Assembly (NCBI GenBank): GCA_029866325.1
Contig: JARWZO010000027.1
Span: 62,001 to 126,000, forward strand
Direction of reading: 5' to 3'
From: Fluviicola sp.
GTDB lineage: Bacteria; Bacteroidota; Bacteroidia; Flavobacteriales_D; Crocinitomicaceae
Length of the DNA stretch: 64,000 nt
In this document: positions 16,184-43,034 of the stretch, piece by piece
Layout of the letters: the number at the start of each line of letters is the position of its first letter
How positions within the stretch are numbered: the first letter of the stretch is position 1
Notes under the pieces: model-generated
What the model was told of the DNA's origin: nothing
The model's database searches: none
The model's input: only the letters and a program-made list of their open reading frames with translations
Translations under genes and position numbers: made by a program

Positions 16184-16320
16184 GATTTTTGATGTTGGAT
16201 GCTTGATTTTTGATTAGAATTTGGTAAAGAGCACAATTTTAATTCTAAATTCCGATCATGTTAGATAAATCATTACTGATTTACGATACCTCATCAAGCA
16301 TCCAACATCAATAATCAAAC
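16184..16320. repeat. Heptad-word inverted repeat element, copy A
   Basis: It begins directly after the TAA of the DUF4476 gene. The left arm (16184-16215) contains GATGTTGGATGCTTGATTTT and the right arm (16291-16320) its complement core ATCAAGCATCCAACATCA. The unrelated AT-rich middle is about 75 bases. Four other copies occur in this window (21114, 29206, 30144, 42902). Confidence 0.8.
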
Positions 16321-16455
16321 ATAAGGCATGCGCAGATTTATTCAAAATCAAGTAAATCCGTAAAGATTTGAAAATCCTTGTTTTTTCCATTCAATTTGCT
16401 TAAATTTCTGAAAGGGTTTCGCGATATTCGCAATCTACTAATTAAACATACGACT

Positions 16456-16809
16456 ATGAAAGCACTACTATCTTTTGCATTATTGCTGTTGGTAACAGTG
16501 GTATACGCAGGTTCACCGGATACTAATCCGAATTTTTCAGGTTCGGAAGTGATTAAAATGCGCATTCAGTCTTCACAAGTAGATTGTGATGGAGTTATCG
16601 GAGGACCGCTTTGTTATAGTGTTCAGAAAGAATCCAAAATTGGAAAAGAGAATTGGGAAACGTTGGAACAATCGATTGAAGGGTTCAATTACGAAGCTGG
16701 ATTTGTGTACGATGTTACCGTAAAAATCGAGCGCATTGAAAATCCGGAACCGAACCAATCTCAGTTTCGCTATATTTTGATCGACGTTATTTCCAAACAA
16801 GCCGACTAA
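16456..16809 (+). CDS. Small secreted DUF4377-like protein
   Basis: 117 residues from the ATG at 16456, which opens a clean signal peptide (MKALLSFALLLLVTVVYAG). The frame runs upstream to 16378, but that extension is not signal-like. The mature part, with CYSVQKES, IEGFNYEAGFVYDVTVKIER and a C-terminal DVISKQ, fits the DUF4377 fold. Function is unknown; probably periplasmic. Its stop overlaps the next start (TAATG), so the two are coupled. Confidence 0.75.
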   Translation: MKALLSFALLLLVTVVYAGSPDTNPNFSGSEVIKMRIQSSQVDCDGVIGGPLCYSVQKESKIGKENWETLEQSIEGFNYEAGFVYDVTVKIERIENPEPNQSQFRYILIDVISKQAD

Positions 16810-17198
16810 TGACAATTGAGTTATCTGTTGACTTTCCGGTTAACGTTTCAACGCTCTACAGTGCTTGGTTGGATAGCGATCAACATGCTGCTATGACAGG
16901 TGGTGAAGCATCCGTTTCCGATAAAGAAGGCGATTCGTTTACAGCTTGGGACGAATACATTAGCGGTAAAAACATCGAGTTGATTCCGAATACCAAAATC
17001 AGACAAACGTGGCGAACGACCGATTTTCCGGAAACACAACCCGATTCGGAACTTGTTCTTGATTTTATTCCCACGGAAAATGGTACGCGATTGTTGTTGA
17101 AACATACTGGATTAAGTAAAACTGACGGACAGTATGAGTCTGGCTGGGAAGAGCATTACTTCACACCGATGGCTGAATATTTCGCCTCCTTAAGCTGA
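16809..17198 (+). CDS. SRPBCC / AHSA1-like START-fold protein
   Basis: 129 residues, cytoplasmic. Features of the Bet v1/AHSA1 helix-grip family: an N-terminal strand then YSAWLDSDQHAAMTGG, the segment FTAWDEYISGKNIEL, a TWRT strand, FIPTENGTRLLLKHTG and a C-terminal helix beginning GWEEHY. These proteins bind small hydrophobic ligands in a cavity. No catalytic role can be named. Coupled to the preceding DUF4377-like gene. Confidence 0.82.
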   Translation: MTIELSVDFPVNVSTLYSAWLDSDQHAAMTGGEASVSDKEGDSFTAWDEYISGKNIELIPNTKIRQTWRTTDFPETQPDSELVLDFIPTENGTRLLLKHTGLSKTDGQYESGWEEHYFTPMAEYFASLS

Positions 17199-17208
17199 TT
17201 TTATACCC

Positions 17209-17239
17209 TTTTTGAATGTTCGCTTTTTTCCTAACTTTG
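17209..17239 (+). promoter_or_regulatory. Consensus Bacteroidetes promoter, possibly giving a leaderless mRNA
   Basis: TTTG at 17209-17212, a 19-base spacer, then TAACTTTG at 17232-17239. Both boxes and spacing match the Bacteroidetes consensus. The -7 box ends four bases before the ATG at 17244, so transcription would start at or near the start codon. Confidence 0.65.
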
Positions 17240-17243
17240 AGAT

Positions 17244-17636
17244 ATGGAACGAAAGTGGATTATTACAGGATTGGTATTACTCATCACAGGAATTATACTA
17301 GGAGCATTTGGTGCACACGCGCTGAAAGACATTATTCATGATCAAGAGCGTTTGGCTTCATTCGAAACCGGAGTTCGTTATCAACTCATTCACGGAGTCG
17401 CATTTTTATCCTTGCCCTTTGTTGCGCGCCACTTCGAATTAGACACCAAATGGGTGTATCGTTTGTTACTCATCGGGATCTTGTTTTTTTCCGTTTCCAT
17501 TTATTTTCTGACCATGCGCGATGTTTGGTCGCTGGGTTCAGCTGCAAAAGTATTCGGACCGATAACTCCTATTGGTGGATTGTTGCTCATTATCGGTTGG
17601 GGAATCTTATTGCTGAAAGTAATCCGCAAACGCTAA
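17244..17636 (+). CDS. DUF423 family membrane protein
   Basis: 130-residue inner-membrane protein with four hydrophobic helices. The family signature is present: GAFGAHALK near residue 25 and RYQLIHGVAFL near 50. Function is unknown. It has its own consensus promoter very near the ATG. The next gene begins 26 bases downstream, so co-transcription is possible. Confidence 0.88.
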   Translation: MERKWIITGLVLLITGIILGAFGAHALKDIIHDQERLASFETGVRYQLIHGVAFLSLPFVARHFELDTKWVYRLLLIGILFFSVSIYFLTMRDVWSLGSAAKVFGPITPIGGLLLIIGWGILLLKVIRKR

Positions 17637-17662
17637 AATTGTATCTTCGTTAAAACACATTT

Positions 17663-18427
17663 GTGAAAATAACCATACTCGGTTCGGGCACATCTCAAGG
17701 CATTCCGGTGATTGCCTGCGACTGTCATGTCTGTACATCGACAGATGTTCGGGATAATCGATTGCGTTGTTCCGTTTTGATTGAATACGAAGGTGAAAAT
17801 TACGTGATCGATGCAGGTCCGGATTTTCGTCAGCAGCTTTTACGTGCGAAAGTGAAATCGTTGCGAGCTGTTCTTTTTACCCACGAACACAAAGATCACA
17901 TTGCCGGTTTGGATGATGTAAGAGCCTTTAATTTTCGTGAAAACCGTGATATGGAAATTTACTGCACATTTCAGGTCGAAGAGGCATTGCGACGCGAGTA
18001 CCATTATGCATTTGATCAAACACCGTATCCAGGGGTTCCCGAGCTAAACATCAATCTCATCAACCTCGATCCGTTTGTGTTGCCCAATGGTTTGGAAGTC
18101 ATTCCGATAGAAGTGATGCACCATAAAATGCCTGTGCTCGGTTTTCGGATGGGGAAATTTGCTTACGTCACCGATGCCAAAACAGTTGAGGATAGTGAGA
18201 TCGAAAAACTAAAAGGAGTGGAAGTGCTCATTATAAATGCCCTGCGTAAGGAACCGCATATTTCGCATTTTAACCTGGAAGAAGCGTTGGATTTTATCGA
18301 AAAAGTAAATCCCCAAGCAGCCTACCTGACGCACATTTCGCACATATTTGGCACGCATATTGAAATAGAACGCGAGCTGCCGGCTCATGTGCATGTTGCG
18401 TATGACGGCTTGCAATTTGAATTTTAG
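17663..18427 (+). CDS. MBL-fold metal-dependent hydrolase, PhnP-like
   Basis: 254 residues from a GTG start. The metallo-beta-lactamase motif HEHKDH is at 74-79 with further ligands downstream (MHHKMP, and THISH near the C-terminus). A short cysteine cluster (Cys19, Cys21, Cys24 in ACDCHVC) resembles the structural zinc site of PhnP, a cyclic-phosphate phosphodiesterase. No phosphonate genes are nearby, so the substrate is unknown. Likely cytoplasmic. It is followed after three bases by a secreted-protein gene. Confidence 0.85.
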   Translation: MKITILGSGTSQGIPVIACDCHVCTSTDVRDNRLRCSVLIEYEGENYVIDAGPDFRQQLLRAKVKSLRAVLFTHEHKDHIAGLDDVRAFNFRENRDMEIYCTFQVEEALRREYHYAFDQTPYPGVPELNINLINLDPFVLPNGLEVIPIEVMHHKMPVLGFRMGKFAYVTDAKTVEDSEIEKLKGVEVLIINALRKEPHISHFNLEEALDFIEKVNPQAAYLTHISHIFGTHIEIERELPAHVHVAYDGLQFEF

Positions 18428-18430
18428 CAC

Positions 18431-18973
18431 ATGAAAGCACTTCGACTACTACTGATTTTACTAACAATTAATCTTTCCATATCAGCACAAGAAGTCGTTC
18501 AGATTTCCGGTAAAGGGAAACTGATTTCCGATTTTACGTCGATTGGCGACAAGCCCAATTCAAAAGGACTGTACCTTAATCAATTCCAAACACTCGTTTC
18601 GCTTATTGAAGGAACCCAGTCGGTGAAATGCATGGTGCGCATCGAAAGCACGGTAAATGTGATTGGTGTTTGGGAACTCAACGATTTAAACGATGTTCAG
18701 GTAAAGGTTTACGAAGTGGAAATGGAAAAGGGAATAACCGACTTGCTGTTGATTTCAATTGCAGACGGAAAAGCCATTACGATGAATCTTTTTCGTAAGT
18801 CTGGCGAAGATTTGAATGATTTGGGATACAACTATATCGAACAGAAAGAACCGAATCAACCCATGACAATTGTGATCGGCGAAGACCGCATTCAGGTGGT
18901 GTACGATAAGGGTTCTGAAAAACCGTATTACGGATTGGTTGATGGACAATTCAGGGAGATTATCTCAAATTAA
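18431..18973 (+). CDS. Secreted protein, 180 aa, unknown
   Basis: An N-terminal signal peptide (MKALRLLLILLTINLSISAQ) precedes a beta-rich domain of about 160 residues. I do not recognise the family. It starts three bases after the MBL hydrolase and is followed by fabI after 29 bases. No catalytic motif is visible. Confidence 0.75.
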   Translation: MKALRLLLILLTINLSISAQEVVQISGKGKLISDFTSIGDKPNSKGLYLNQFQTLVSLIEGTQSVKCMVRIESTVNVIGVWELNDLNDVQVKVYEVEMEKGITDLLLISIADGKAITMNLFRKSGEDLNDLGYNYIEQKEPNQPMTIVIGEDRIQVVYDKGSEKPYYGLVDGQFREIISN

Positions 18974-18977
18974 ATCC

Positions 18978-18985
18978 TAAATTTG
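18978..18985 (+). promoter_or_regulatory. Putative -7 box before fabI
   Basis: TAAATTTG matches TAnnTTTG and ends 17 bases before the fabI ATG. No good -33 box is visible at the expected distance. Confidence 0.35.
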
Positions 18986-19002
18986 CCTCAAATCCAATTG
19001 AG

Positions 19003-19815
19003 ATGTCAAAATTATTAGAAGGAAAACGTGGAATCATTACCGGAGCTTTGGATCAGAATTCCATTGCTTGGAAAGTGGCTGAAAAAGCGCATGAACACGG
19101 AGCTACATTTGTGTTGACAAACGCTCCTATCGCTATGCGTATGGGTGAAATCAATGCCTTGGCTGAAAAAACCAACTCTCAGATTATTCCTGCAGATGCT
19201 ACCAGCGTAGAAGAGTTAACCAATCTCTTTACGCAATCGCAGGAAGTATTGGGCGGAAAAATTGATTTTGTGTTGCATTCTATCGGAATGAGCGTGAACA
19301 TTCGTAAAAACATCCCATATACCGAATCAAACTACGATTATTTCGCAAAAGGAATTGATGTATCGGCAATGTCGTTGCACAAAATGTTGGCGGTAGCTAA
19401 GAAATTAGATGCCATCAGCGATTGGGGTAGTGTAGTTGCTTTAACCTACATGGCTGCGCAACGTACCTACCCGTTCTACACGGATATGGCCGACATCAAA
19501 GCGATGTTGGAATCGATTGCACGCAGCTTCGGTTATCACTACGGTTTAGAGAAAAAAGTGCGGATTAATACCGTTTCTCAATCACCTACCAAAACTACGG
19601 CTGGTACAGGAATCAAAGGTTTCGGTGATTTTTACGATTACGCAGATGCCATTGCTCCGCTAGGAAATGCATCGGCTGAAGATTGTGCTAATTACTGCAT
19701 CACCTTGTTCTCTGATTTAACGCGTATGGTGACCATGCAGAACTTGTTCCACGATGGCGGTTATTCATCTACGGGTGTGAGCAATATCGTGATGGAGAAA
19801 ATGGGAATTGAATAA
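19003..19815 (+). CDS. fabI: Enoyl-[acyl-carrier-protein] reductase (NADH)
   Basis: Last reductive step of fatty-acid elongation. 270-residue short-chain dehydrogenase-type protein with the FabI features: GIITGALDQNSIAWKVA at the nucleotide site, LHSIGMS near 91-97, and catalytic Tyr149, Tyr159 and Lys166 with the exact Y-x9-Y-x6-K spacing of FabI. A strong terminator follows. Probably transcribed alone from the box at 18978 or with upstream genes. Confidence 0.95.
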   Translation: MSKLLEGKRGIITGALDQNSIAWKVAEKAHEHGATFVLTNAPIAMRMGEINALAEKTNSQIIPADATSVEELTNLFTQSQEVLGGKIDFVLHSIGMSVNIRKNIPYTESNYDYFAKGIDVSAMSLHKMLAVAKKLDAISDWGSVVALTYMAAQRTYPFYTDMADIKAMLESIARSFGYHYGLEKKVRINTVSQSPTKTTAGTGIKGFGDFYDYADAIAPLGNASAEDCANYCITLFSDLTRMVTMQNLFHDGGYSSTGVSNIVMEKMGIE

Positions 19816-19835
19816 GTATTTCAAGCAATAAATAG

Positions 19836-19864
19836 AAAAGGAGTCTTCGGATTCCTTTTTTTTT
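19836..19864 (+). terminator. Rho-independent terminator after fabI
   Basis: AAAAGGAGTC, loop TTCG, then GGATTCCTTTT and a run of T residues. One G-U pair in the stem. Confidence 0.85.
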
Positions 19865-19962
19865 GAATCAACGTAGGGGTAAACCCAAACATGGTTGTCC
19901 ATAGCGATAACTAAACCTGAGTTCAAATTTAAAATTGAACACAGGTTAAAAAACCAAGTAAG

Positions 19963-20583
19963 ATGAAACATCTCCTTTTATCGTGCTTTTTAAGTATTGC
20001 GGGAGCGGTGCTGGCACAAACAATGAACTACAAAGGTTCTCAGGGTGGAACACTTTCTTTCGGGCAACGAACCACCTTAAGTGCGTTCAATCACGGAAAC
20101 GAAGCATCTGCTTTGGGAATTGGCGGACAATTCCGGGTTCGACTCAGCGAGCGCATCAACACCGAATGGTTTTTTGATTATTTACCTGCAACGAATGAAT
20201 TTTCCAGAAGATCAGATTACCACATCGGTTGGAGTGTGATGTACTGTCCGTTTAACCACGCCAACGAGCGTTTTGTGCCGTATGTGTTGGCAGGACATTG
20301 TTTTGATTACACCAAACAGGTCGAAATTGCGAATACCAATAATACGGTTGATCGTTGGAGTAGCGCCGTTCAGGGCGGAATCGGAACACACGTGAATCTG
20401 ACCGAGCGTTTGGATATGAGTTTGAGTTCGCAGTATATGATTCACTTGGGTACAGATGTCAATAGTCACACACATGATGGTGCAGTGGAATTCCACAAGG
20501 AAAAGGGCGGTTCATTCGAAGGTCATTTGTTGTTTACATTGAGTTTTAACTACAAATTTATGGACTTATGGGCACGCGATTAA
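19963..20583 (+). CDS. Outer-membrane beta-barrel protein, 206 aa
   Basis: Signal peptide ending VLAQ, then alternating hydrophobic strands and a C-terminal FSFNYKF-like strand, as in small porin-like barrels. It has features of the outer membrane protein beta-barrel (OMP_b-brl) superfamily. No ligand is predictable. The last 16 bases overlap the start of a second barrel gene, so the two are coupled and may be related by old duplication. Confidence 0.75.
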   Translation: MKHLLLSCFLSIAGAVLAQTMNYKGSQGGTLSFGQRTTLSAFNHGNEASALGIGGQFRVRLSERINTEWFFDYLPATNEFSRRSDYHIGWSVMYCPFNHANERFVPYVLAGHCFDYTKQVEIANTNNTVDRWSSAVQGGIGTHVNLTERLDMSLSSQYMIHLGTDVNSHTHDGAVEFHKEKGGSFEGHLLFTLSFNYKFMDLWARD

Positions 20584-21116
20584 TCAAATTGCTGGTATGT
20601 ATGACGGTGGTTATACAGGTATCAGCGCAGCAGGTAGAATTGGGTGAACGACAAGGATTGTTGCAGGCTACAGGTTCGCTTTATCCCGGATGGATGCTCA
20701 ATCACAATGTCCGGAACAACTATGCTGGCGGTCATTTTGCTTATTACTTCGATGATCATTACAGTTTTCGTGGTGAATTTTTGGGATATGTAGATGCGCA
20801 GACCGACGAAAAGTACATCAAAAAACACTTGCAGGTTCAGGCCGGTTTTGGTCGTCATTTTCCGATGAAACGCTGGGATCCGTTTATCTATGCACAAATG
20901 GGATTGGCAGGTATCGAATTGCAAGGCAGTACAAACGCGTTTTTACGTCCGAATGTTGGGCTTGTGGCAGGAGTAAACTACAATGTTTCGCGCTTCTTCT
21001 ATTTTTACGGAGAATGTGAGTTTATCCACATGAAAGATCCTGAGCGGATGAATAACATGGATCAATTGTTGGTAACGGCGGGGCTGGGTTTTCAGATTTC
21101 TACGAAGAGGAAATGA
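20568..21116 (+). CDS. Outer-membrane beta-barrel protein, 182 aa
   Basis: Signal peptide ending VSAQ, followed by beta strands typical of an eight-stranded barrel (YAGGHFAYYFDDHYSFRGEFLG, GFGRHFPMKRWDPFIYAQMGLAG, a C-terminal GLGFQIS). It overlaps the preceding barrel gene by 16 bases. Its TGA stop is the first triplet of a heptad-word repeat element (copy B). Confidence 0.75.
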   Translation: MGTRLIKLLVCMTVVIQVSAQQVELGERQGLLQATGSLYPGWMLNHNVRNNYAGGHFAYYFDDHYSFRGEFLGYVDAQTDEKYIKKHLQVQAGFGRHFPMKRWDPFIYAQMGLAGIELQGSTNAFLRPNVGLVAGVNYNVSRFFYFYGECEFIHMKDPERMNNMDQLLVTAGLGFQISTKRK

Positions 21117-21254
21117 TGCTTCATTTTTGATGCTTGATGTTGGATTGGATATAGGTAAAAATCAAGTTTTTGGTTATAAACTTCAGTCAAGTTGGATGAA
21201 TCTTGATAATTTATAGGATCCAATCAAAAATTAAACATCAAGCATTAAAAATCC
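21114..21254. repeat. Heptad-word inverted repeat element, copy B
   Basis: The left arm (21114-21150) reads as words GCTTCAT, TTTTGAT, GCTTGAT, GTTGGAT; the right arm (21217-21254) is the approximate complement. The first TGA is the stop codon of the preceding beta-barrel gene. The middle is unlike the other copies. Confidence 0.75.
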
Positions 21255-21345
21255 TTATAGAGAGTATCGAACTTTTAACATTAGTTAATCAATATCATTT
21301 GTTCTTATAGAGGTTGCGTATTCCTTTTTTCGCCAAGTTTGTACC

Positions 21346-22692
21346 ATGAATGAACGAAAGGCACTTCCGATTTCAAAACAAATTGCGTACGCATCAGGAA
21401 TGATGGGATGGAGCATGATGATTAACCTGATCAGTGTCATTCTGATTTACCTGTATGCACCTACCAAAGACAGTGGAATTCCGGTGTTTATCACGCAAGT
21501 GGCCATTTTTGGGATTTTTAATGCAATTGCGCTCATCACGGCGGGCGGACGATTGATTGACGCCATTTACGATCCGTTTATTGCACAGAAAAGCGATCAA
21601 AGTAAACATCCGAAAGGTCGGCGCATTCCGATCATGAAATGGGCCATTTTCCCGTCGTTGATTTTTTGTTTTTTGGTGTTTTATCCGATTTTCAATGAAG
21701 AAAGCAATTGGAACGTTGTTTGGCTCACGGTTACATTGGTTGGGTTTTACGTTTCTTCCACCACTTACATTATTCCATACAACGCGTTATTGCCCGAGTT
21801 GGCTCCGTCTTCCGATGATAAGGTGAAACTGTCTACCTGGCAATCGGTTGGTTATGTTTTCGGGATTGGAATTGCTTCCAACGCTTTCAATTTGACCGAT
21901 TTGTACATGAATAAATTGGGGTTGAATCGGGTAGAGGCTTTGCAGTTGACGGTATTGAGTTTTGCTTTGTTAGCCGCGTTGTTTATGTTTATTCCGATCT
22001 GGACAATCAACGAAAAGAAATTGTGTGTGGGTAAACCGAGTGCCATTCCAATGAAAATTGCTTTGCGGCAAACACTCACCAATCGCAATTTTTTGTTGTT
22101 CATCGTAGCCGATTTCGCTTATTTCATTGCCATTACCATCATTACTTCCGGACTGATTTATTTTGTGACCGTTTTGCTAGAATTGCCCGAAAGCATCGGT
22201 AACAAGCTGATGATTACCATGGTGTTGGTGTCATTCCTGTTTTACCCGATTGTGAATTACCTAGCGCGCAGAGTGGGTAAAAAAATCATCGTGCTGGTTT
22301 CATTGGGATTTTTGTCGTTGATTTTTCTGGGAGTTTATTCACTCGGAAAATGGGATATAGATCCGCAAGTACAAATTTATGGACTGATTGCCTGTGCGGC
22401 TATTCCGTTGGCTTCACTGAATATTCTTCCGAACGCTATTTTGGCCGAAATCATTGAAAAGGATAGCCGTGATACGGGCGAAAGCAAAGAAGCCATTTAT
22501 TTCGCGGTGCGCTATTTTTTTGTGAAAATTGCTCAAACCATCGGAATTGCATTGTTTGCGATGTTCCTCTTGTACGGAAAAGACATAGGCGATGATTTCG
22601 GAATTCGCATGAACGGCTTACTTGGTTTTGGATTGTGTGTATTGGCAACCTTGATTTTCACCCGTTTTAAAGAGGAAAAGAGAGTTGATTGA
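21346..22692 (+). CDS. MFS transporter, GPH (MelB-like sugar:cation symporter) type
   Basis: 448-residue inner-membrane protein with about 12 helices. The early segment ISKQIAYASGMMGWSMMIN and the following DPFIAQKSDQSKHPKGRRIPI (the conserved cytoplasmic loop after helix 2-3) are typical of the GPH/MFS_2 family that imports sugars or glycosides with Na+ or H+. No sugar-metabolism neighbours reveal the substrate. A promoter-like element (TTG, then AGTTTG) lies just upstream, ending four bases before the ATG. Confidence 0.85.
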   Translation: MNERKALPISKQIAYASGMMGWSMMINLISVILIYLYAPTKDSGIPVFITQVAIFGIFNAIALITAGGRLIDAIYDPFIAQKSDQSKHPKGRRIPIMKWAIFPSLIFCFLVFYPIFNEESNWNVVWLTVTLVGFYVSSTTYIIPYNALLPELAPSSDDKVKLSTWQSVGYVFGIGIASNAFNLTDLYMNKLGLNRVEALQLTVLSFALLAALFMFIPIWTINEKKLCVGKPSAIPMKIALRQTLTNRNFLLFIVADFAYFIAITIITSGLIYFVTVLLELPESIGNKLMITMVLVSFLFYPIVNYLARRVGKKIIVLVSLGFLSLIFLGVYSLGKWDIDPQVQIYGLIACAAIPLASLNILPNAILAEIIEKDSRDTGESKEAIYFAVRYFFVKIAQTIGIALFAMFLLYGKDIGDDFGIRMNGLLGFGLCVLATLIFTRFKEEKRVD

Positions 22693-29185: not shown

Positions 29186-29203
29186 GATCACGCAAAGGCG
29201 GAC
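29186..29203. repeat. GTCCGCC palindromic repeat, right copy
   Basis: GATCACGCAAAGGCGGAC, the reverse complement type of 27924-27942. It lies just upstream of the CFAS 1 start. Confidence 0.5.
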
Positions 29204-29205
29204 AA

Positions 29206-29342
29206 GATGCTTGATTTTTGATGTTGGATTAAGAACATTAGTAAGAATTTAAGATTTCCCAAACAGTTAACTAGATTAGAGTATGTAGTATTTATTTAAA
29301 GTATCAGTTAATCAAAAATTCAACATCAAAAATCAGGCATCA
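29206..29342. repeat. Heptad-word inverted repeat element, copy C
   Basis: Left arm 29206-29232 reads GATGCTTGATTTTTGATGTT; right arm 29308-29342 is its complement. It lies between CFAS 1 and the DUF1365 gene and contains the DUF1365 stop codon (29340-29342). Confidence 0.75.
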
Positions 29343-30137
29343 CTTCGATTTACGATAAACATCGCGTTGCAGATCTTGATGATCATTCTTTTTATGGTAA
29401 GGAATTTTTTTCAACCACAGGATCAGTGCTTTCCAGTGAATAAGGGTAATAATTCGAAGGGTAATCAATGGGAACCGAAACGCATATCCGAACAAACGGG
29501 CGTTGGTCAATTCCTTCTTCGTGCCGGTGAGTGTACTGATGAAAAAGCGTTTTCCGTCTTTGTAATCATCGATGCCAATCCCTAGGTTTTCGTCGGGAAC
29601 CGGAAGATTAAAATCGAATTGGGTATCGTGATCAATGAAGGGCGAAACGTAAAAATACTTCGTGGTATTGAGGTGAAATTTGGTTCCGCTCAACTGTTCT
29701 TTCCCCAAAAAGTAAGGTTTCATTTCGCGATAGGTATTTTGAACTTCTGCAATGCTGCAAACGGGTTGCTGCTGTTGATCAAAGACAAAATAAAACGATA
29801 CGGGATTAAAATTATAGCCTAAAACACTGAAATTGGTCAATAACATGATTGGTCCGCCATCATACGAAACGCCGTTTTCTTTGAGGTAATCAATGATTTG
29901 TTCCTTAACTTGTTTGGAAGTATCAGGTTTCTCCAGCGGCAATTGCAAATGGTCTTTATCGCGAAAAGTGAAGACATTGAATCGGTTGCGACTTACAAGA
30001 ACGTATTTTTTAGGAAGCGCTTCCAGGTCGTCGAGATTTACATAAAAGAGAAACACGTTGTACCCGAAACGAAGTCTTTTCGGTTCCAAACGGTCGTGCA
30101 TGACCCGAGCTCGGTAAAGGGACGATGTGGTGTTCAC
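29340..30137 (-). CDS. DUF1365 family protein
   Basis: 265 residues from a GTG start; the segment SLYRARVMHDRLEP belongs to the family, so the later ATG in it is too short. DUF1365 proteins regularly occur beside CFAS-like methyltransferases and flavin amine oxidases in lipid-modification loci, but their activity is not established. Motifs seen: YNPVSFYFVFD and FHLNTTKYFYVSPF. It is bracketed by heptad-word repeat copies C and D. Confidence 0.85.
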   Translation of the reverse strand: MNTTSSLYRARVMHDRLEPKRLRFGYNVFLFYVNLDDLEALPKKYVLVSRNRFNVFTFRDKDHLQLPLEKPDTSKQVKEQIIDYLKENGVSYDGGPIMLLTNFSVLGYNFNPVSFYFVFDQQQQPVCSIAEVQNTYREMKPYFLGKEQLSGTKFHLNTTKYFYVSPFIDHDTQFDFNLPVPDENLGIGIDDYKDGKRFFISTLTGTKKELTNARLFGYAFRFPLITLRIITLIHWKALILWLKKIPYHKKNDHQDLQRDVYRKSK

Positions 30138-30143: not shown

Positions 30144-30292
30144 TGATGCTTGATGTTGGATTTTTGATGTTGGATGAAAGTGTCTGGAGAAAACTCAGGC
30201 TTTTCCAAACAACTATAACTTTTATTGCTTCCAAACATCTTCATAATTTAATTGTCATAATTCAACATCAAAAATCAAGCATTAAGCATCAA
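30144..30292. repeat. Heptad-word inverted repeat element, copy D
   Basis: Left arm 30144-30175 has words GCTTGAT, GTTGGAT, TTTTGAT, GTTGGAT; right arm 30259-30292 is the approximate complement. It contains the last residues and stop (TAA) of the PP2C gene. Confidence 0.78.
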
Positions 30293-31652
30293 TCCTGATT
30301 CCTATAACACAAATATCATCCACTTGTTCCAAATCGCCTTTCCATTGGTGCAATCTATCCAACAAAACCTGATGTTGTTTTTCAAGGCTTTCAGCGTAAA
30401 CGGAGATCAACAAATCTTCCAATTGTTTGTGCTTGAATTTCTTGCCTTTCGGTCCGCCAAACTGATCCGGATAACCATCGGTAATCAAATACACCATTCC
30501 ACCCGATTTTACGGAAAGTTGGTGCGTTGTAAACGGTTGTTTGTGGTGCGATTCGCCGATGGGCTGTTTATCGGCTTTTATTTCCTGAAATCCGTCTTCA
30601 TCGATGTACCACAACGGATTATTAGCTCCTGCCCATTTCAGCAGTGTTTCAGTTGACGTGGAGGTGATACTGAGTAAGGAAACATCCATTCCGTCTTGAA
30701 TTACTTCGCCGCTTTTGGAAAAACTATCAATCAATAAATCGCGCGTTTTGTCAAGAATTTCTCCCGGTTCTGATAACCCGAATTCTTTCACACTTCTGTT
30801 GAGTGCATTGCTACATACTACAGACATCATAGCTCCCGGAACTCCGTGACCCGTGCAATCTGCCGCCGCAATCAAAAAGGTATCGTCTATGGTTTCTGCC
30901 CAGTAAAAATCGCCGGCAACAATGTCTTTGGGTTGGTACAACACAAACGAATCTTTCAAATGTGAGCCGATGAATTCTAACGAAGGTAAAATAGCCGTTT
31001 GAATGCGCTTGGCGTAAGTGATACTATCGGTGATTTCCTTGTTGTTTTCTTCGACTTTGAGCAAAGTACCACGCAATTTTTCTTCGGTGATGTGTCGCAT
31101 GTTCACTTCCTTTCGAAATGAAAGATTCCAACCGATAAAGGTGACAAGTAGTATCAATGCGCCTAAACCAAGAATAATCGTTGAACCGGGCCAATGCAAC
31201 AATCGACCGAGAAGTCCCATTGATATGAAAACAATGGAGATTAAATCGGCAAAACTGAGTATGAGCGCCCGTTTAGACAAGATATTCCGACGACTTTCAT
31301 AGCGTGAACGAATGATTAATGGCAATCCTGAAGATGAAAAAAGCAATACGGAAACGATGATTTCGAGTCCGGCAAACGGAGCGTGGAGAAATTTGCTGAG
31401 AATTCCCATTGAAAGTGCGAGTCCCGAAAAAACGCTGACAATGATAATCATCCGTTTGCGTTTGATCGGAATGGCTTGGTAGTACATCAACGTGAAACTT
31501 AACCCGAAAAGTATGATGGATAAAAAGCTAAGAATAATTTTAATTGGCTCAGGTACGGCATCAAGAAAAGCAATAAACGGAGAACTGATCAGCATCGTAA
31601 TGAAAACGATACTAATACCAAGAAACCATTTACCTGCTTTGTTGAGATTCAT
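30282..31652 (-). CDS. Membrane SpoIIE-type protein phosphatase
   Basis: 456 residues. About six hydrophobic helices fill the first 190 residues; a short coiled coil (HITEEKLRGTLLKVEENN) precedes YAKRIQTAILPS and a PP2C-like SpoIIE domain: PKDIVAGDFYWAE, AAADCTGHGVPGAMMS, YLITDG and the final DDICVIGIR. All metal-binding acidic residues appear present. These phosphatases act on anti-anti-sigma-type partners or other phosphoproteins. It lies inside the lipid cluster, in the same direction; whether functionally linked is unknown. Confidence 0.85.
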   Translation of the reverse strand: MNLNKAGKWFLGISIVFITMLISSPFIAFLDAVPEPIKIILSFLSIILFGLSFTLMYYQAIPIKRKRMIIIVSVFSGLALSMGILSKFLHAPFAGLEIIVSVLLFSSSGLPLIIRSRYESRRNILSKRALILSFADLISIVFISMGLLGRLLHWPGSTIILGLGALILLVTFIGWNLSFRKEVNMRHITEEKLRGTLLKVEENNKEITDSITYAKRIQTAILPSLEFIGSHLKDSFVLYQPKDIVAGDFYWAETIDDTFLIAAADCTGHGVPGAMMSVVCSNALNRSVKEFGLSEPGEILDKTRDLLIDSFSKSGEVIQDGMDVSLLSITSTSTETLLKWAGANNPLWYIDEDGFQEIKADKQPIGESHHKQPFTTHQLSVKSGGMVYLITDGYPDQFGGPKGKKFKHKQLEDLLISVYAESLEKQHQVLLDRLHQWKGDLEQVDDICVIGIRIDA

Positions 31653-36033: not shown

Positions 36034-36043
36034 AATAGTTGGT

Positions 36044-36376: not shown

Positions 36377-36386
36377 AATGAATGGT

Positions 36387-37367: not shown

Positions 37368-37434
37368 ATTTTCATAAACTCAGGGAATGCTTCGAAATAC
37401 CTTTGTGGAGTTGAAACAATAAAAAGATAGTCGT

Positions 37435-38361
37435 ATGTTAACTAGTAAAATGATTGGTACTAAAATTACCGAAGCACGCAAAAAAATGCAGATCTCTCAA
37501 GCTCAGCTTGCAGAACACTTATTTATCAGTTCACAAGCGGTTGGGAAGTGGGAGCGCGGAGAATCCTTACCCGACATCATTACGTTGAACCGTTTGGCTG
37601 AAATTCTGGGTGTGACCCTGAACTATTTTTCAGAAAACGGAGAATCTGCGTCCTCCGAAAAAATATCAACGGAGTCTTCTGAAGAACAATCTGCTGAATT
37701 GCCGTTAGGAAAACCGAACTTATCTAATGGTAAAGCAAAAAAGCTCAGTTGGGATATGTCAAGCGGAAATTGGGGCGATGCCGACTTTTCGGGCTTGAAA
37801 AATTTGCAGGAACGATTCAGTTCTTCCAACATGCAGCGTTGTCTGTTTATCGGATCCGATTTATCGAACCTGCTCTTGAAAAGCAATAATATCGATAGTT
37901 GTGACTTTTCAGGCTCCGATATCACGAACAGTCGTATTCAAGGTTCTAATCTTGTCAACAATAAATTCATCGACTGTAAACTAAACGAAGCGGACTTTTC
38001 AGGAAGTCATATCTTAGGTGGTGATTTCACCGGTTGCGATCTTACCGGAGTAACGTTTAAATCAGGCGGTTTCGAGAAAAACACGATTGCGAATGCCGTA
38101 TGGAACCGTACTACTTTTAGTGCCATGTATCTTGCCGATCTTACTTTCGAAGGTACGGTAGAGGATTGTTGTTTTGAGAATTCCGCTTTCAAAAGAGTCA
38201 CCTTCCGAAACGCAACGCTCACAAATACCTTCTTCAAAAACAAGAGTTTGAAAAACGTAAAGTTTATTGACTGTCAAGCAGATCGTTTGACCTACGAATT
38301 CCTGAAAAACGGAAAGGCAGACTTGACCGGAATCACACTGTTAATCGAAGAAACAGAGTAA
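37435..38361 (+). CDS. XRE-family HTH regulator fused to pentapeptide repeats
   Basis: 308 residues. An N-terminal helix-turn-helix (about 8-64: ITEARKKMQISQAQLAEHLF ... VGKWERGESLPDI) is followed by an acidic linker (about 65-100) and then about 200 residues of pentapeptide repeats (pattern A/C-D/N-F/L-S-G-S, e.g. DFSGSDI, LVNNKFIDCKLNEADFSGS, DFTGCDL). Pentapeptide repeats form a beta-helix that can mimic DNA or bind proteins. The twin palindromes upstream suggest autoregulation. Divergent from the lipid operon. Ligand unknown. Confidence 0.9.
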   Translation: MLTSKMIGTKITEARKKMQISQAQLAEHLFISSQAVGKWERGESLPDIITLNRLAEILGVTLNYFSENGESASSEKISTESSEEQSAELPLGKPNLSNGKAKKLSWDMSSGNWGDADFSGLKNLQERFSSSNMQRCLFIGSDLSNLLLKSNNIDSCDFSGSDITNSRIQGSNLVNNKFIDCKLNEADFSGSHILGGDFTGCDLTGVTFKSGGFEKNTIANAVWNRTTFSAMYLADLTFEGTVEDCCFENSAFKRVTFRNATLTNTFFKNKSLKNVKFIDCQADRLTYEFLKNGKADLTGITLLIEETE

Positions 38362-38370
38362 TAATTGAAT

Positions 38371-38404
38371 AAAAGGAGGTTTTCCCTAGGTTAATCTCCT
38401 TTTT
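38371..38404. terminator. Bidirectional terminator between convergent genes
   Basis: AAAAGGAG (38371-38378) pairs with CTCCTTTT (38396-38403) and runs into T residues on + and A residues on -. It serves both the XRE gene and the YdcF gene. Confidence 0.7.
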
Positions 38405-38410
38405 ACTTTC

Positions 38411-39178
38411 TTAAATCTTCCCGGTCATACTATATGCCACATAACCGACCATTTCTTTCAACAAACCATGCCAGTCCGACATCGTAGAAACATCCGGAAC
38501 GACGAATTCATCAAACGTGTAGCTTCGTTTCGGGCCGGTGTATAAATCGGTCGAGTAGGGCGTGCAGTGCAAACCTGCAGCTTTGTAGCAAGCCAACGCA
38601 CGTCGCATGTGTCTGCCGGAAGTGATCAATATAAACGACTTGTACTTTGGATAGTATTTATCAAGCACTTTTTTGGTTTCCACGGCATTTTGATGTGTGT
38701 TGCGCGAAACGGTTTCGGTAATGATATCTTCCTTTGGAATTCCCCAACGAACGAGTACAACTTTCATTTGTTTGGCTTCATGCAAACCTTTGTTGGTCAA
38801 ATCACCATTATCACCGCTAATAAGTATTTTATCGATTTTCCCTGCTTTATACAACTCAATGGTTTGCCAAATGCGATCACCACCACGTCGAAGACTGAGC
38901 GTTTTCAAATCATTGTTGTATTCGGCCATTCCGCCTAAAACAATTCCTACATCGTGGTGTTTTACCTTTCCGATAGGCGTTCCGAAAACTTCCCACTGTC
39001 GGCAAAATTCCTTGTAGATAAAGGTGTTGCTGAAAAACAACAAACAAAATATAGCTGTGATTTTACCACGTTTCTTCCATTTGGCTGAGCGCGAAAAAAA
39101 GGTAAGTCCCAATCCGAGAATCACCCATGTGAGCGGAGAAAGCAGGAAGAGTAATAGTTTTGAAAGCAGAAAAAACAT
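38411..39178 (-). CDS. YdcF/ElyC-like membrane protein (DUF218)
   Basis: 255 residues. Two N-terminal helices (about 1-50) anchor a DUF218 domain: GIVLGGMAEYNND, the segment ISGDNGD, and late ILITSGRHMRRALACYKAAG. ElyC, a related protein, maintains cell envelope integrity in E. coli; YdcF binds SAM. Function here not proved. Stands alone, convergent with the XRE gene. Confidence 0.85.
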   Translation of the reverse strand: MFFLLSKLLLFLLSPLTWVILGLGLTFFSRSAKWKKRGKITAIFCLLFFSNTFIYKEFCRQWEVFGTPIGKVKHHDVGIVLGGMAEYNNDLKTLSLRRGGDRIWQTIELYKAGKIDKILISGDNGDLTNKGLHEAKQMKVVLVRWGIPKEDIITETVSRNTHQNAVETKKVLDKYYPKYKSFILITSGRHMRRALACYKAAGLHCTPYSTDLYTGPKRSYTFDEFVVPDVSTMSDWHGLLKEMVGYVAYSMTGKI

Positions 39179-39196
39179 GTGTCAAAGATATAATAT

Positions 39197-39268
39197 TTGG
39201 TGTAGGCGCAGGACGCATCCCGCGCCAATCACCAAATGATCAGATAAAGTTGTGAACGCGTCCCGCGC
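39197..39268. repeat. GGCGCGGGA-type palindrome cluster
   Basis: GGCGCAGGACGCATCCCGCGCC (39205-39226) forms a hairpin whose stem extends through TTTGGTG/CACCAAA (39197-39236). A partial second copy, ACGCGTCCCGCGC, lies at 39256-39268. The same core occurs at 62388-62481. Confidence 0.6.
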
Positions 39269-39296
39269 TTACTATAATCATTCCAAATGGGTGAAA

Positions 39297-39328
39297 CAAA
39301 AAAGACCGTCAATTTTTGATTGACAGCC
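39297..39328 (-). terminator. Rho-independent terminator of rplS
   Basis: On the minus strand the hairpin GCTGTCAA ... TTGACGGTC is followed by a run of T residues. Confidence 0.75.
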
Positions 39329-39356
39329 TTCTAATATCGAAAAAGTGTTGAGCTTC

Positions 39357-39716
39357 TTAGTTGTTAGTGAATCTTCTTTTCTCCTTGATACGAGCAGATT
39401 TACCTGTACGCTCACGGAAGTAGAAAATACGAGCACGACGAACAGCACCGTGTTTGTTCACTGTAATTGCGTCGATAAACGGAGAAGTAATAGGGAAGAT
39501 ACGTTCTACACCTACGTTTCCTGACATTTTACGAACCGTAAATGTTTCAGTTGAACCAGAACCGCGACGTTGTAATACAACACCTTGAAACTGCTGAATA
39601 CGCTCTTTGTTTCCTTCTTTAATTTTGTAAGACACAGTAACTGTATCTCCGGCACCGAATGCAGGAAACTCTCTTACTTCTACTAATTCTTTTTGAAGCT
39701 CTCTTATAAAATCCAT
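39357..39716 (-). CDS. rplS: 50S ribosomal protein L19
   Basis: 119 residues. Located at the 30S-50S interface. The sequence follows L19 closely: [54 protein letters not shown] and [19 protein letters not shown]. Transcribed alone with terminator at 39297 and promoter-like box at 39788. Confidence 0.98.
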
Positions 39717-39787
39717 GACTCTTAATTTCTATCGCTATCCCATAATTGGGGGTGCAATATTAGCAAATATTTTTCTAATTCAAAGCG

Positions 39788-39795
39788 CAAAGGTA
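39788..39795 (-). promoter_or_regulatory. Putative -7 box of rplS
   Basis: TACCTTTG on the minus strand matches TAnnTTTG, about 72 bases upstream of the rplS ATG. Confidence 0.4.
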
Positions 39796-39876
39796 CAACT
39801 TTTTTCAGCTTAATACTGTAATACCCGTTCACTTTCGCTTTTTTGATTATTTTCGGTTGATAAAACGACAATCAAT

Positions 39877-40596
39877 ATGAAAAAAATCAGCTTGCTGTTT
39901 GCACTACTTCCACTATTAGCCCTTGCTCAGGAATCAACTGAGGGCACGATGAGCATGTCCAATTGGTTAGGAATTTGGGACAATTTGGAAACCACTCCGG
40001 CTTTCAATATTCAGGCAATCGGTTACAACGATATACCACGCGATGTCTTTTACCGCGGAATCATTGTAGAATGCTTGGAATTTGACGACGCTAACGGACA
40101 CAACATCCTGATTCTTACACAAACAGGGATGTTTCCTGTAAGTGAGAAAAATGAAATCGGAGCATACGAAAAAGTCGGCGATAGAGCTGAAATTAATGCT
40201 TATTTGTTTGCACGTTCCGACGAAAAAAGCAACTATAAGTCTATCTGGAAGGTCACTGATTTTCAAGGGTGTAATGACTTTGATCTCTATGCCGGATTTA
40301 CCAAAAAATCGCTTTCGGTGACAGATGTGAATGCCGATGGCGTGGCCGAAGTTTCGTTTCAATACACGCTTTCATGCAGAAGTGACGTTTCACCGGCAGA
40401 TCGCAAGCTGTATTGCTTTAATTCGAATGAGAAGTTCATTTTCTTAGGAGTTACAACCTTAGAAGGAATGTCTACAGATGAACCTACAATTGAAGCGAAA
40501 ACCGAAATCCCGTCTTCGATAAAAGAACTGATGCAGCGAAAATGGCTGCGATATGAAGAAGACGCTTTTGGTCAGTTTAATTATCTGGAAAAATAA
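39877..40596 (+). CDS. Secreted protein, 239 aa, M949_RS01915-like
   Basis: Signal peptide ending LALAQ. The body has the segments GFTKKSLSVTDVNADGVAEV and TLSCRSDVSPADRKLYC, which I recall from the Flavobacteria family labelled M949_RS01915 (surface polysaccharide-related). The DVNADGVAEV segment resembles a calcium-binding FG-GAP-like loop. Assignment is tentative. It precedes the RimK group by six bases, so may be co-transcribed. Confidence 0.68.
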   Translation: MKKISLLFALLPLLALAQESTEGTMSMSNWLGIWDNLETTPAFNIQAIGYNDIPRDVFYRGIIVECLEFDDANGHNILILTQTGMFPVSEKNEIGAYEKVGDRAEINAYLFARSDEKSNYKSIWKVTDFQGCNDFDLYAGFTKKSLSVTDVNADGVAEVSFQYTLSCRSDVSPADRKLYCFNSNEKFIFLGVTTLEGMSTDEPTIEAKTEIPSSIKELMQRKWLRYEEDAFGQFNYLEK

Positions 40597-40601
40597 GAGC
40601 A

Positions 40602-41036
40602 ATGCACATTTTAGGGAGAAAAGACATTGTAACCTTTCCTGAGTTTGAGTTGATCAATGTTCCGGTGAAAATAGATTCGGGCGCCTATTCTAGTTCCATG
40701 CACTGTCATAACATCAATCTGGTGGAAATAGATGGTAAACAGGTACTTGAAGTTGTGTTTCTCGATCCGACAATAGAAGGCTATACAGGTAAGAAATTTC
40801 AGTTTGAAACGTATAAACGCAAGAAGGTGAAAAGTTCCAATGGAATGTCGGAGGAACGTTTTTTTGTACTTGGTTCGGTTCGTCTGTTCAACGAAACGGT
40901 GGAAACACTATTTTCGCTCACTGAACGCACCGGTTTGCGCAATCCTATTTTGTTGGGAAGAAGATTGCTGAACAAACGTTTTTTAATCGATTCGTCCAAA
41001 ACAAATTGTTCGTTCAAGGCAGAATCAAACGGTTAA
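40602..41036 (+). CDS. RimK-linked retropepsin-like 'ATP-dependent zinc protease' family protein
   Basis: 144 residues. The family has a retropepsin-like aspartic motif, here KIDSGAYSSSMH (Asp-Ser-Gly), and C-terminal RNPILLGRRLLNKRFLID. Such proteins are routinely encoded next to rimK (called RimB in some genomes). Zinc dependence and ATP dependence are only names of the family; no HExxH is seen. First of a three-gene unit with rimK and an AstE-like gene. Confidence 0.83.
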   Translation: MHILGRKDIVTFPEFELINVPVKIDSGAYSSSMHCHNINLVEIDGKQVLEVVFLDPTIEGYTGKKFQFETYKRKKVKSSNGMSEERFFVLGSVRLFNETVETLFSLTERTGLRNPILLGRRLLNKRFLIDSSKTNCSFKAESNG

Positions 41037-41068
41037 GTTGATTAATTTAAGAGAATTAAGAGTAGTAT

Positions 41069-41947
41069 ATGAAAATCGCCATCCTTTCACGCAACACTGA
41101 TTTGTATTCAACCCGTAGATTGGTTGAAGCGGCTGAAAAGCACGGTCACGAAGCTCATGTGATTGACCACCTTCGCTGCAATATCGAAATCGAACAAAAA
41201 GGGCCGTCGCTGTATTACGGTTCTGATTATCTGATTGGTTTTAATGCGGTCATTCCCCGAATTGGTGCCTCGGTAACGTTTTACGGAACGGCGGTAGTGC
41301 GCCAGTTTGAAATGATGAACGTGTTTTCGGTGGTGAGCTCCCGCGGAATTGTACACTCACGTGATAAACTTCGCTGTTTGCAGGTGCTTTCAAAAGAAGG
41401 GATCGGTTTGCCGAAAACGGTGTTTACCAACTATTCCCGCAATGTGGAGCACGTGGTGGAATCTGCCGGAGGAGCGCCTGTTGTATTGAAATTGCTGGAA
41501 GGAACACAAGGGTTGGGCGTTGTGTTGGCTGAAAACCAAAATGCCGCGCAATCGGTTCTGGAAGCGTTCAACGGCTTACGCGCCCGTGTGATTGTTCAGG
41601 AATTCATTCGCGAAGCCAAAGGAGCCGATATTCGTGCTTTTATAGTTGATGGAGAGGTTGTAGGTGCCATGAAACGTCAGGGAAAAGAAGGTGAATTTCG
41701 CTCGAACCTGCACCGTGGCGGTTCTGCCATGCAAATTGAATTGACTGAAGAAGAAAAATCAACTGCCATTCGCGCTGCAGAAGCTGTGGGCTTGGGTGTT
41801 GCGGGTGTTGATATGTTGCAATCAGAAAGAGGTCCGTTGGTGTTAGAGGTCAATTCTTCGCCCGGTTTGGAGGGAATCGAGCGTGCAACAGGTGTAGACG
41901 TTGCCGGAAAAATCATTCAATACATCGAAAAGAACGTAAAAGTATAA
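41069..41947 (+). CDS. rimK: RimK-type ATP-grasp ligase (ribosomal protein S6 glutamate ligase family)
   Basis: 292 residues. Adds glutamate residues to a protein C-terminus (S6 in E. coli). ATP-grasp features: [18 protein letters not shown] (nucleotide loop), [18 protein letters not shown], and [21 protein letters not shown], the metal-binding loop. Followed by the deacylase after three bases. The substrate in this organism is not known; S6 is an inference. Confidence 0.9.
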
Positions 41948-41950
41948 CGT

Positions 41951-42910
41951 ATGGCTAAGCGATTTTTCATTTTAGGCACTGAAGTTTTACCCGGAAAAGG
42001 GACAGAGCTAAGCATGAATGTTGCAAAATTGCATACCCATACTCCGGTCCAGGTTCCGGTAATTGTGCAGCGTGCCGAAAAAGACGGTCCTGTTTTGCTA
42101 TTGATGGCCGGTATGCACGGCGATGAGATCAACGGAATGGAAATGATTCGGCGCGTGATCCGCAAAGGATGGAACAAACCAACTGCCGGAACAATTATTT
42201 GTATTCCGGTGTTTAACGTGTTTGGTTACCTGAACGTGAAACGCGAATTGCCCGATGGGCGCGACCTTAACCGAAGTTTTCCCGGCACAAAAAACGGTTC
42301 GCTGGCCAGTCAGTTTGCTTACGAGTTTATGAAAGAAATTGCGCCAAACATTGATATGGTGATCGACTTTCATACCGGAGCGGCTCAACGCAGCAACATT
42401 GCTCAAATCCGTTGCCTAAAGACCGATGAAGTGAGCATGGAATTAGCCAAGGTGTTTAATCCGCCGTTTATCGTTCATTCGTCCTATATCAGTAAATCTA
42501 TCCGTGAGGCGATGAATAAACGCGGTAAAAAAATTCTGTTGTTTGAAGGCGGAAAAGCCAATTCCATCGATGAGAAAATTGTAGAAGAAGGTTTGGCCGG
42601 AATTCAGCGTATATTGACGCATTTGGGTATGCGAACTTTTAAAACGCTTGATCTAAATGATCGTGAACCGATTCTGATCACGTCCTCTAAATGGCTGAGA
42701 GCGCCCAACTCCGGAGTTTTTCAGGCAATCGTCAAAAACGGTGATGAAGTGGAAGTAGGAACCGTTTTGGGAATTGTTTGCGATCCGTATGGCGAAATTG
42801 AACGCAAGGTAAAATCAACCATGAAAGGATTTATCATTTGTGTGAACGAATCTCCGCTGGTCAATAAAGGCGATGCTGTTTTTCATATCGGCGTAGCTGC
42901 CAATGCTTGA
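41951..42910 (+). CDS. Succinylglutamate desuccinylase / aspartoacylase family protein
   Basis: 319 residues. Zinc carboxypeptidase-like fold (M14): His56 and Glu59 in MAGMHGDEINGM, PDGRDLNRSFPG, and His141 in DFHTG. It likely removes acyl groups or glutamate from a small molecule or protein tail. Always near RimK in many genomes, so a trimming partner for glutamylated products is a reasonable guess. The final GCT TGA is part of repeat copy E. Confidence 0.86.
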   Translation: MAKRFFILGTEVLPGKGTELSMNVAKLHTHTPVQVPVIVQRAEKDGPVLLLMAGMHGDEINGMEMIRRVIRKGWNKPTAGTIICIPVFNVFGYLNVKRELPDGRDLNRSFPGTKNGSLASQFAYEFMKEIAPNIDMVIDFHTGAAQRSNIAQIRCLKTDEVSMELAKVFNPPFIVHSSYISKSIREAMNKRGKKILLFEGGKANSIDEKIVEEGLAGIQRILTHLGMRTFKTLDLNDREPILITSSKWLRAPNSGVFQAIVKNGDEVEVGTVLGIVCDPYGEIERKVKSTMKGFIICVNESPLVNKGDAVFHIGVAANA

Positions 42911-43034
42911 TGTTGGATTTTTGATGAGATTGAGGTTAATTAGCACAGCTTGTCTAATTTAACTTAGATTTAGAACCGAAACTCGTCTTTTACCAATACT
43001 CCAATCCAACATCAAAAATCAAGCATCAAACATT
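42902..43034. repeat. Heptad-word inverted repeat element, copy E
   Basis: Left arm 42902-42927 (AATGCTTGATGTTGGATTTT) and right arm 43000-43034 (complement, with words for GTTGGAT, TTTTGAT, GCTTGAT). It includes the stop codon of the preceding gene and lies between convergent genes. Confidence 0.8.

Follow-up and report, generated by a model that had tools for sequence, protein, structure and literature searches.

What are the five inverted repeats, built from shuffled seven-base words, that lie between positions 16,184 and 43,034 of a 64,000-nucleotide stretch of Fluviicola sp. DNA (the window; positions 62,001 to 126,000 of contig JARWZO010000027.1, assembly GCA_029866325.1)? A sequence-only reading of the window had described five copies, A to E, each arm a run of GAT-ending 7-mers whose order differs between copies, and all five are present where it placed them. 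We consider it probable that they are gene-less members of a group of small, probably selfish, dispersed elements, the full members of which carry a PF05635 gene between inverted heptamer arrays. PF05635 is the S23 or '23S rRNA intervening-sequence protein' family (rRNA, ribosomal RNA), and no open reading frame (ORF) of this family lies within A to E.

The following was computed directly. Arms with a period of seven flank PF05635 genes across phyla, the dialect (word set) of the arms follows the protein lineage, and gene-less and gene-bearing copies share a dialect. The elements are located at the ends of reading frames, their arms contain an excess of stops when read inward, and at some sites shared between two species the dialect of both arms differs.

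A dispersed family with a shared vocabulary

The window lies on contig C6 of a 4.68 Mb genome (G000). A genome-wide search for three consecutive heptads of the pattern KNTKGAT gave 82 + 84 overlapping matches, compared with 1 + 0 for the reversed pattern; chance words were ruled out by this control (166 matches versus 1). Elements were parsed among the matches listed (about 100 places per genome) together with the matches starting GYTTGAT (63 of the 166), and some elements are missing from the set. From 61 parsed arm pairs, 9 that were nested, duplicate or doubtful were dropped to leave 52 elements; two stretches (L078 and L090) yielded no arm pair. G000 therefore contains at least 52 elements, A to E among them, with a plan of about four heptads, a core, and about four heptads inverted. 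Four heptads is the commonest arm length (62 of 104 arms). The gap between the arms is 72–94 nucleotides (nt) in 32 of the 52 elements, 108–215 nt in 12, 43 nt in one and 2–25 nt in seven. Four copies (L030, L091, L093 and L098) are hairpins of arms only, lacking a core (gap 2–11 nt), and nesting of elements within others was seen (L025, L070).

The main words are TTTTGAT, GCTTGAT, GTTGGAT and GTTTGAT, with rarer ones in addition. The set first described (GCTTGAT, GTTGGAT and TTTTGAT) was thus correct but incomplete, as GTTTGAT, TTTGGAT, GTTGAAT and TATTGAT also occur. Word strings are distinct in 42 of the 52 left arms, and the order at site B differs between two species, so the family is not one element with point changes, and the description of a conserved vocabulary in permuted order is upheld.

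Period-7 arrays beside PF05635 genes

G000 has six PF05635 genes. By eye, all six have word-like flanks, each with its own words, and one copy (L036) is flanked by the GAT words of the window. The family was found in 27 of 30 own and related genomes and in 116 of 148 sampled genomes of Bacteroidota, compared with none of 14 well-known control genomes.

For 94 loci from own and related genomes (94 of 128 matches, mostly the best-scoring), a self-match at lag 7 of at least 19/28 was present in 36 upstream and 34 downstream flanks, compared with 1 and 0 in Markov shuffles, and in none of the gene bodies of the same loci. The best lag in these 188 flanks was 7 in 86, 8 in 34 and 14 in 18. Similarly, it was 7 in 34 of 60 flanks of the best 30 further loci, which formed our phylum-wide set, and in 112 of 156 flanks of 78 named loci (80 were found with the L162 protein as query, two of which were dropped for short flanks). 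Among these 78, an array of at least 18/28 was present on at least one flank in 70 and on both flanks in 52. The named loci span Bacteroidota, Ignavibacteria, Desulfobacterota-like bins, Clostridia, Cyanobacteria, Chloroflexi, the candidate phyla radiation (CPR) and others, although many are metagenome bins, for which the phylum labels are only as reliable as the binning, and L257 and L258 show the same arrays. Arrays of at least 20/28 were strongly concentrated at a period of seven (181, with 24 at period 8, two at 6 and one at 9). Seven PF05635 loci with a common upstream neighbour (L131, L135, L137, L141, L142, L144 and L149) are without word arms.

Eight of 22 plasmid records of PF05635 were examined, and all eight have arrays of at least 20/28 on both sides; one phage record lacks this arrangement. 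On cyanobacterial plasmids (L343, L344, L347 and L348), arrayed PF05635 genes lie between cas2 and cas1, csx2 and cas1, or drmD and pglX. Judged by this placement, the reported links of PF05635 to cas loci may be insertions into those operons.

The two arms of one element share a dialect. In the 101 of 204 loci in which both arms were strong, the 5-mer cosine of the two arms was 0.52 in inverted orientation, compared with 0.09 in direct orientation and 0.07 across loci, and inverted likeness exceeded direct likeness in 90 of the 101. Loci with more similar proteins also have more similar dialects (Mantel rho 0.33, p = 0.001, same 101 loci): the dialect cosine was 0.74 above 80% protein identity and about 0.04 below 30%.

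Two sets of PF05635 loci, of 15 and 9 members, share neighbours on one or both sides, at sites that we named 'acyltransferase' and 'sdh', respectively, from reading the flanks. In both sets an arm is more like the other arm of its own element than like the arms of orthologs (p = 1.5e-4 and p = 5e-5). In a protein tree that left out 3 of the 94 proteins (under 95 amino acids, L036 among them), the sdh-site proteins, represented by 8 of the 9 loci, form one clade with support of 99/97, a sign that they have been inherited vertically for a long time. For the acyltransferase-site group, four changes on the tree are required. As the sdh-site proteins are a single clade and their arms match their own partner, at least at this site the words changed in place, both arms together.

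A different source of dispersed hairpins would be palindromes of the repetitive extragenic palindrome (REP) or bacterial interspersed mosaic element (BIME) type, moved by a Y1 (REP-associated tyrosine) transposase (RAYT). Y1 enzymes act on hairpins, Y1_Tnp genes occur in 23 of the 30 own and related genomes (three in G000), and the present elements resemble REP/BIME in being short dispersed hairpins at gene 3' ends. However, period-7 arrays, which PF05635 genes have, were present at none of 42 flanks of 21 Y1_Tnp genes from the same related genomes (30 loci, of which 24 were entered and 3 dropped as asymmetric); the highest self-match was 16/28 and the best lag was 7 in 6 of the 42. An identity with RAYT-flanking repeats was rejected on this basis, and movement by a Y1 transposase is highly improbable.

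Word order and cores

The sequence-only reading proposed that the arms arose by slippage or recombination within a heptad array, coupled to arm-to-arm correction. Permuted order, variable arm length and the presence of one dialect in both arms are all consistent with this. Its observation that the opposite arm matches the word order was borne out only in part, as a weak excess: the longest shared word run was 1.81 within elements compared with 1.64 across the 52 elements (p = 0.028), and shared runs totalled 94, compared with 81.7 when the right arm's own words were shuffled (p = 0.001). In contrast, the energy of the arm–arm RNA duplex was no better within than across elements (−26.1 compared with −25.8, p = 0.30). 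Arm complementarity derives mostly from the shared vocabulary; strict copying of arm order was rejected, and arm-to-arm correction in that form is at best weakly supported.

Plain slippage was also rejected, because it should leave identical neighbouring words and these are avoided. Only 9 of 248 pairs of adjacent exact words in G000 arms are identical, compared with 59.5 expected, and shuffling within arms gave a mean of 32 compared with 11 observed (p = 2e-4). Taken together, slippage or recombination with arm-to-arm correction is distinctly unlikely as an explanation of the elements. Pure tandem arrays do occur in some relatives. A pure GTTGAAT tandem of ten copies, unlike the mixed arrays elsewhere, lies at positions 39932–40001 of G000 contig C13.

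The central bases were originally described as completely different between copies, which does not hold. Forty cores were oriented and aligned, and 31 of them entered a shuffled control, from which cores outside 70–95 nt and one of a 90%-identical pair were excluded. These 31 gave 18 columns with a majority of at least 60%, compared with a mean of 8.5 and a maximum of 11 in 12 shuffled runs, and GGTA was found near the core end in 16 of the 31 (shuffled mean 2.6). Orientation itself scored 3139, inside the shuffled range (mean 2511, maximum 3460). The alignment control rules out unrelated cores: the cores are diverged relatives, and their likeness is real. Best pairwise core identity in G000 was 0.45–0.65, apart from one pair at 0.90, the two copies around L036.

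Such diverged cores beside regular arms might suggest that the elements are copied through RNA, with PF05635 working alongside a reverse transcriptase from another locus, in the manner of its distant relative Avd; the available text of PMC10053308 reports a resemblance between PF05635 and Avd. The divergence of the cores may, however, reflect age alone, and we regard copying of this kind as very unlikely.

Elements at the ends of reading frames

The elements are tightly placed with respect to genes. A frame of at least 90 codons ends in an arm or within 25 nt of it at 44 of the 52 elements, compared with 38 of 460 random positions. Over a wider range around the 104 arm ends, 69 frame ends were found, 56 of them at −16 to +10 from the arm's outer edge. 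At gene-bearing loci (frames of at least 80 codons), 100 of 169 ends lie in the same range, where about 19 would be expected if they were uniform. This clustering is partly trivial, since arms contain stops and a frame that runs into an arm must stop there, so native stops before the arm are the cleaner evidence. They make up about 40 of the 56 ends in G000, and 44 of the 169 at gene-bearing loci, compared with about 11 if uniform. In the window, the elements and the frames that end at them are as follows.

16184–16214, plus strand: left arm of A (TTTTGAT, GTTGGAT, GCTTGAT, TTTTGAT); starts directly after the stop codon of an upstream ORF that stops at 16183
16215–16292: core of A, 78 nt
16293–16320, minus strand: right arm of A (read inward GTTTGAT, TATTGAT, GTTGGAT, GCTTGAT)
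21114–21145, plus strand: left arm of B; the ORF at 20568–21116 terminates within it, and the arm supplies its TGA
21146–21222: core of B, 77 nt
21223–21254, minus strand: right arm of B
29206–29229, plus strand: left arm of C (GCTTGAT, TTTTGAT, GTTGGAT)
29230–29310: core of C, 81 nt
29311–29342, minus strand: right arm of C; the minus-strand ORF at 29340–30137 terminates within it
30144–30175, plus strand: left arm of D (GCTTGAT, GTTGGAT, TTTTGAT, GTTGGAT)
30176–30259: core of D, 84 nt
30260–30292, minus strand: right arm of D; the minus-strand ORF at 30282–31652 terminates within it
42902–42925, plus strand: left arm of E (GCTTGAT, GTTGGAT, TTTTGAT); the ORF at 41951–42910 terminates within it
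42926–43003: core of E, 78 nt
43004–43034, minus strand: right arm of E (read inward GTTTGAT, GCTTGAT, TTTTGAT, GTTGGAT); the minus-strand ORF at 43033–43512 terminates at its edge

The arms are also asymmetric in the stops they carry. Stop triplets numbered 3.74 per 35 nt of arm when read inward, compared with 2.02 outward. Inward stops were more numerous in 168 arms and outward stops in 37, with 38 ties (p = 4e-21), although arms from related loci are not independent and this p is therefore too small; counted by locus, the difference was 107 to 22 of 148. All three frames were stopped in 131 of 243 arms inward compared with 58 outward (58.5 after shuffling), and among the 104 arms of G000 in 36 inward and none outward. 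Flanks without arrays showed no inward bias (10 inward compared with 13 outward of 82). As the period is not a multiple of three, one stop triplet enters all frames. Inward stops in all frames fit an element obliged to terminate host translation at its edge.

Other repeats were seen near the elements. A period-7 array of TTTTCAA words, the dialect of the G000 PF05635 gene L035, lies at 58997–59038 of the window. The sequence TTGAAAATTGAAAA has 11 + 12 matches in G000, some of them inside GAT elements (L025, L070). A second dispersed repeat, around CGCCAAAGGCGGAC / GTCCGCCTTTGGCG, is found at about 29190–29205 and about 59070 of the window and at L023, L073, L079 and L084; it is often beside or within heptad elements, and adjoins the site C element in both species compared below.

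The same sites in a sister species

The window is syntenic in the sister species G011: of 17 alignment blocks, 14 show identities of 80–87%, and the other three 67, 69 and 73%. The two genomes favour different words. GAT-word matches numbered 166 in G000 and 47 in G011, whereas AAT-word matches numbered 44 and 174; matches in these counts overlap one another, and a single tandem array accounts for 8 of the 44 AAT matches in G000. The sites compared below were found through GAT words in G000 and so lean towards GAT there, a bias that the whole-genome counts do not have.

At site E the G011 element begins at the same base and has both arms in the AAT dialect. Both arms are GAT in G000, bar one word, and AAT in G011 at three sites: E and L023, where the two flanks were matched, and L068, where one was. 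The dialect was switched in part at C, L011, L069 and L070, and is GAT or mostly GAT in both species at A, B, D and the gene site. At site A the left arm in G011 is identical word for word, the core cannot be aligned and the right arm has other GAT words; at site B the word order differs and there is hardly any core. At the site of L069, about 900 nt of extra, seemingly coding sequence follows the word array in G011 (L353, 3510–4530).

G011 has two PF05635 paralogs of the L036 lineage, one per dialect, the AAT one being L164. It lies between the arms at the site of L070, where G000 has no PF05635 gene. Among the six PF05635 genes found in G000, only L036 resembles L164, and it is GAT and disrupted.

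Could the hairpins instead be 3'-end features of host genes, such as terminators, messenger RNA stabilisers or REP-like sequences, with S23 as a host RNA-binding protein that uses them? Their tight placement at frame ends, the regularity of the arms while the cores drift, and the presence of word elements in both G000 and G011 at 11 of the 15 sites compared would all be expected of such features. They sit less well with the scarcity of GAT words in the genus, where three of 14 genomes (counting G000) have them and G004, one of the three, has two matches, and with the nesting of elements (L025, L070). Moreover, PF05635 proteins recur at unrelated sites, and the arrayed gene is also found on plasmids and in the neighbourhood of CRISPR-Cas (clustered regularly interspaced short palindromic repeats) and BREX/DISARM (bacteriophage exclusion; defence island system associated with restriction–modification) genes. 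We therefore consider a host-feature origin unlikely.

Relation to known systems

The closest described relatives are the intervening sequences (IVS) of 23S rRNA that encode S23p (PF05635), for example in Coxiella, which the available text of Warrier 2016 (PMC4990558) describes as selfish and as having a 28-bp terminal stem. The shared features are the protein family and a single small ORF between terminal inverted repeats (PMC4990558, as available). Gene-bearing relatives of the present elements have a PF05635 ORF between inverted repeats (90 of 101), which the window copies do not, and an Rfam scan that covered the window and 20 of the 80 named loci found no rRNA in any of them. Further differences from IVS are that each arm of the present elements is an array of shuffled heptamers in a given dialect and that many copies are gene-less. 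PF05635 has further been reported in 16S and 23S rRNA insertions of CPR bacteria, some of which lack an ORF (PMC11270868), and in cas loci (PMC3936711); the available passages of these two papers make no mention of flanking heptamer arrays. In Flavobacterium columnare, 'four helix bundle protein' appears twice in the available text of PMC5524665, both times in a table of phage regions. Searches of the open-licence text of PubMed Central turned up no paper that links PF05635 with heptamer arrays. A known Rfam RNA was rejected as the identity of the elements, as the scan of the window gave only the DUF805b motif (RF02914) at 55405–55440 on the minus strand, away from them.

Cyanobacterial short tandemly repeated repetitive (STRR) sequences are a family of heptamer direct repeats. 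Direct repeats of the heptamer TAACTGA have been described in Beggiatoaceae, cyanobacteria and five Bacteroidetes (MacGregor 2015, PMC4679880). According to the available text, they share with the present elements a 7-base period, a mostly intergenic position near gene starts or ends, a scattered distribution over phyla and a suspected horizontal spread; in contrast, that work centres on direct repeats of one word, and no mechanism was evident in it. The paper gave no match for 'four helix', 'S23' or '23S'. The arrays here are not head-to-tail copies of a single heptamer: they mix words, in G000 identical words stand side by side less often than expected, and the arrays are paired in inverted orientation. 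Tandem TAACTGA was found in none of the PF05635 loci examined, the closest seen being CAGTTAC/CAGTGAC beside a Euhalothece plasmid copy.

Like miniature inverted-repeat transposable elements (MITEs), the 52 parsed elements are short, non-coding and multi-copy with terminal inverted repeats, and have a presumed mother element; unlike in MITEs, the inverted repeats are word arrays of variable order. No transposase-bearing relative with the same ends was found in a search confined to Y1_Tnp flanks, and it is PF05635 that lies between like ends. PF05635 is not known to be a transposase.

A proposed mechanism

Most likely, the elements are selfish, are relatives of rRNA intervening sequences and end in hairpins that carry an all-frame stop. 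How might they persist? Gene-less members retain both arms and, in most cases, a core of roughly 80 nt. With a period that is not a triplet and a stop triplet in most words, the arms would end translation in any frame that enters, so that an element at the 3' end of a gene would be harmless and insulated, and the inverted arms would form hairpin ends as in rRNA intervening sequences. A natural candidate for reading the words is the PF05635 protein itself, a ring-shaped pentamer built from four-helix bundles, perhaps with one word per subunit: the PF05635 structures 2rld and 2gsc in the PDB have five chains each, and S23p is cited as a toroidal homopentamer in the available text of PMC4990558. 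The pentamer could act in trans on gene-less copies, so that the vocabulary would be maintained even as recombination between arrays lets word order drift. Mobility would be provided by the host or by an unknown enzyme.

Several results weigh against this reading, together with the limits on the frame ends, the sign test and the phylum labels given above. The elements encode no mobility enzyme. A recent copying burst was sought through near-identical cores in G000 with no sign of one, the cores (0.45–0.65) being old. The L036 gene is disrupted relative to its G011 ortholog. The comparison of sites in related genomes that the sequence-only reading had suggested gave differences in order and dialect at shared sites but no clean empty site between G000 and G011: at L025, L030, L065 (matched on one flank only) and L099, G011 has no run of GAT or AAT words, but the flanks are rearranged there. 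Site D, matched on one flank, keeps its GAT left arm and, by eye, a like core in G011, with a mixed right arm, so not every site turns over. Among same-site groups of PF05635 loci, five small ones (2–3 loci each) gave p = 0.17–0.67, and one of seven loci, without word arms, gave p = 0.47. The inverted-repeat alignment beats every cross pair in only 46 of 94, 11 of 30 and 34 of 78 loci, and the direct-orientation score is also raised (16.6, compared with 19.3 inverted and 12.6 cross; 94 loci). Finally, by eye the arrays at two of the eight plasmid loci (L344 and L348) look direct rather than inverted.

A bolder form of the selfish-element reading is possible rather than probable. Each subunit of the S23 ring would read one word, leaving order free and vocabulary fixed, in a pan-bacterial class of selfish elements; takeover by a paralog of new specificity would rewrite both arms into its dialect at old sites genome-wide, all-frame stops would allow life at host stop codons, and the puzzling heptamer repeats known from giant sulfur bacteria and cyanobacteria would be relics of such elements.

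Under the selfish-element reading, PF05635, a common family without a known function, would gain a context and perhaps a role. The reading would also connect PF05635 genes in defence operons with rRNA intervening sequences and with orphan heptamer repeats. A non-triplet period combined with inward stops would be a simple rule for harmless residence at gene ends. The elements also pose the problem of how arms scattered over a genome can hold to a single vocabulary when the cores diverge.

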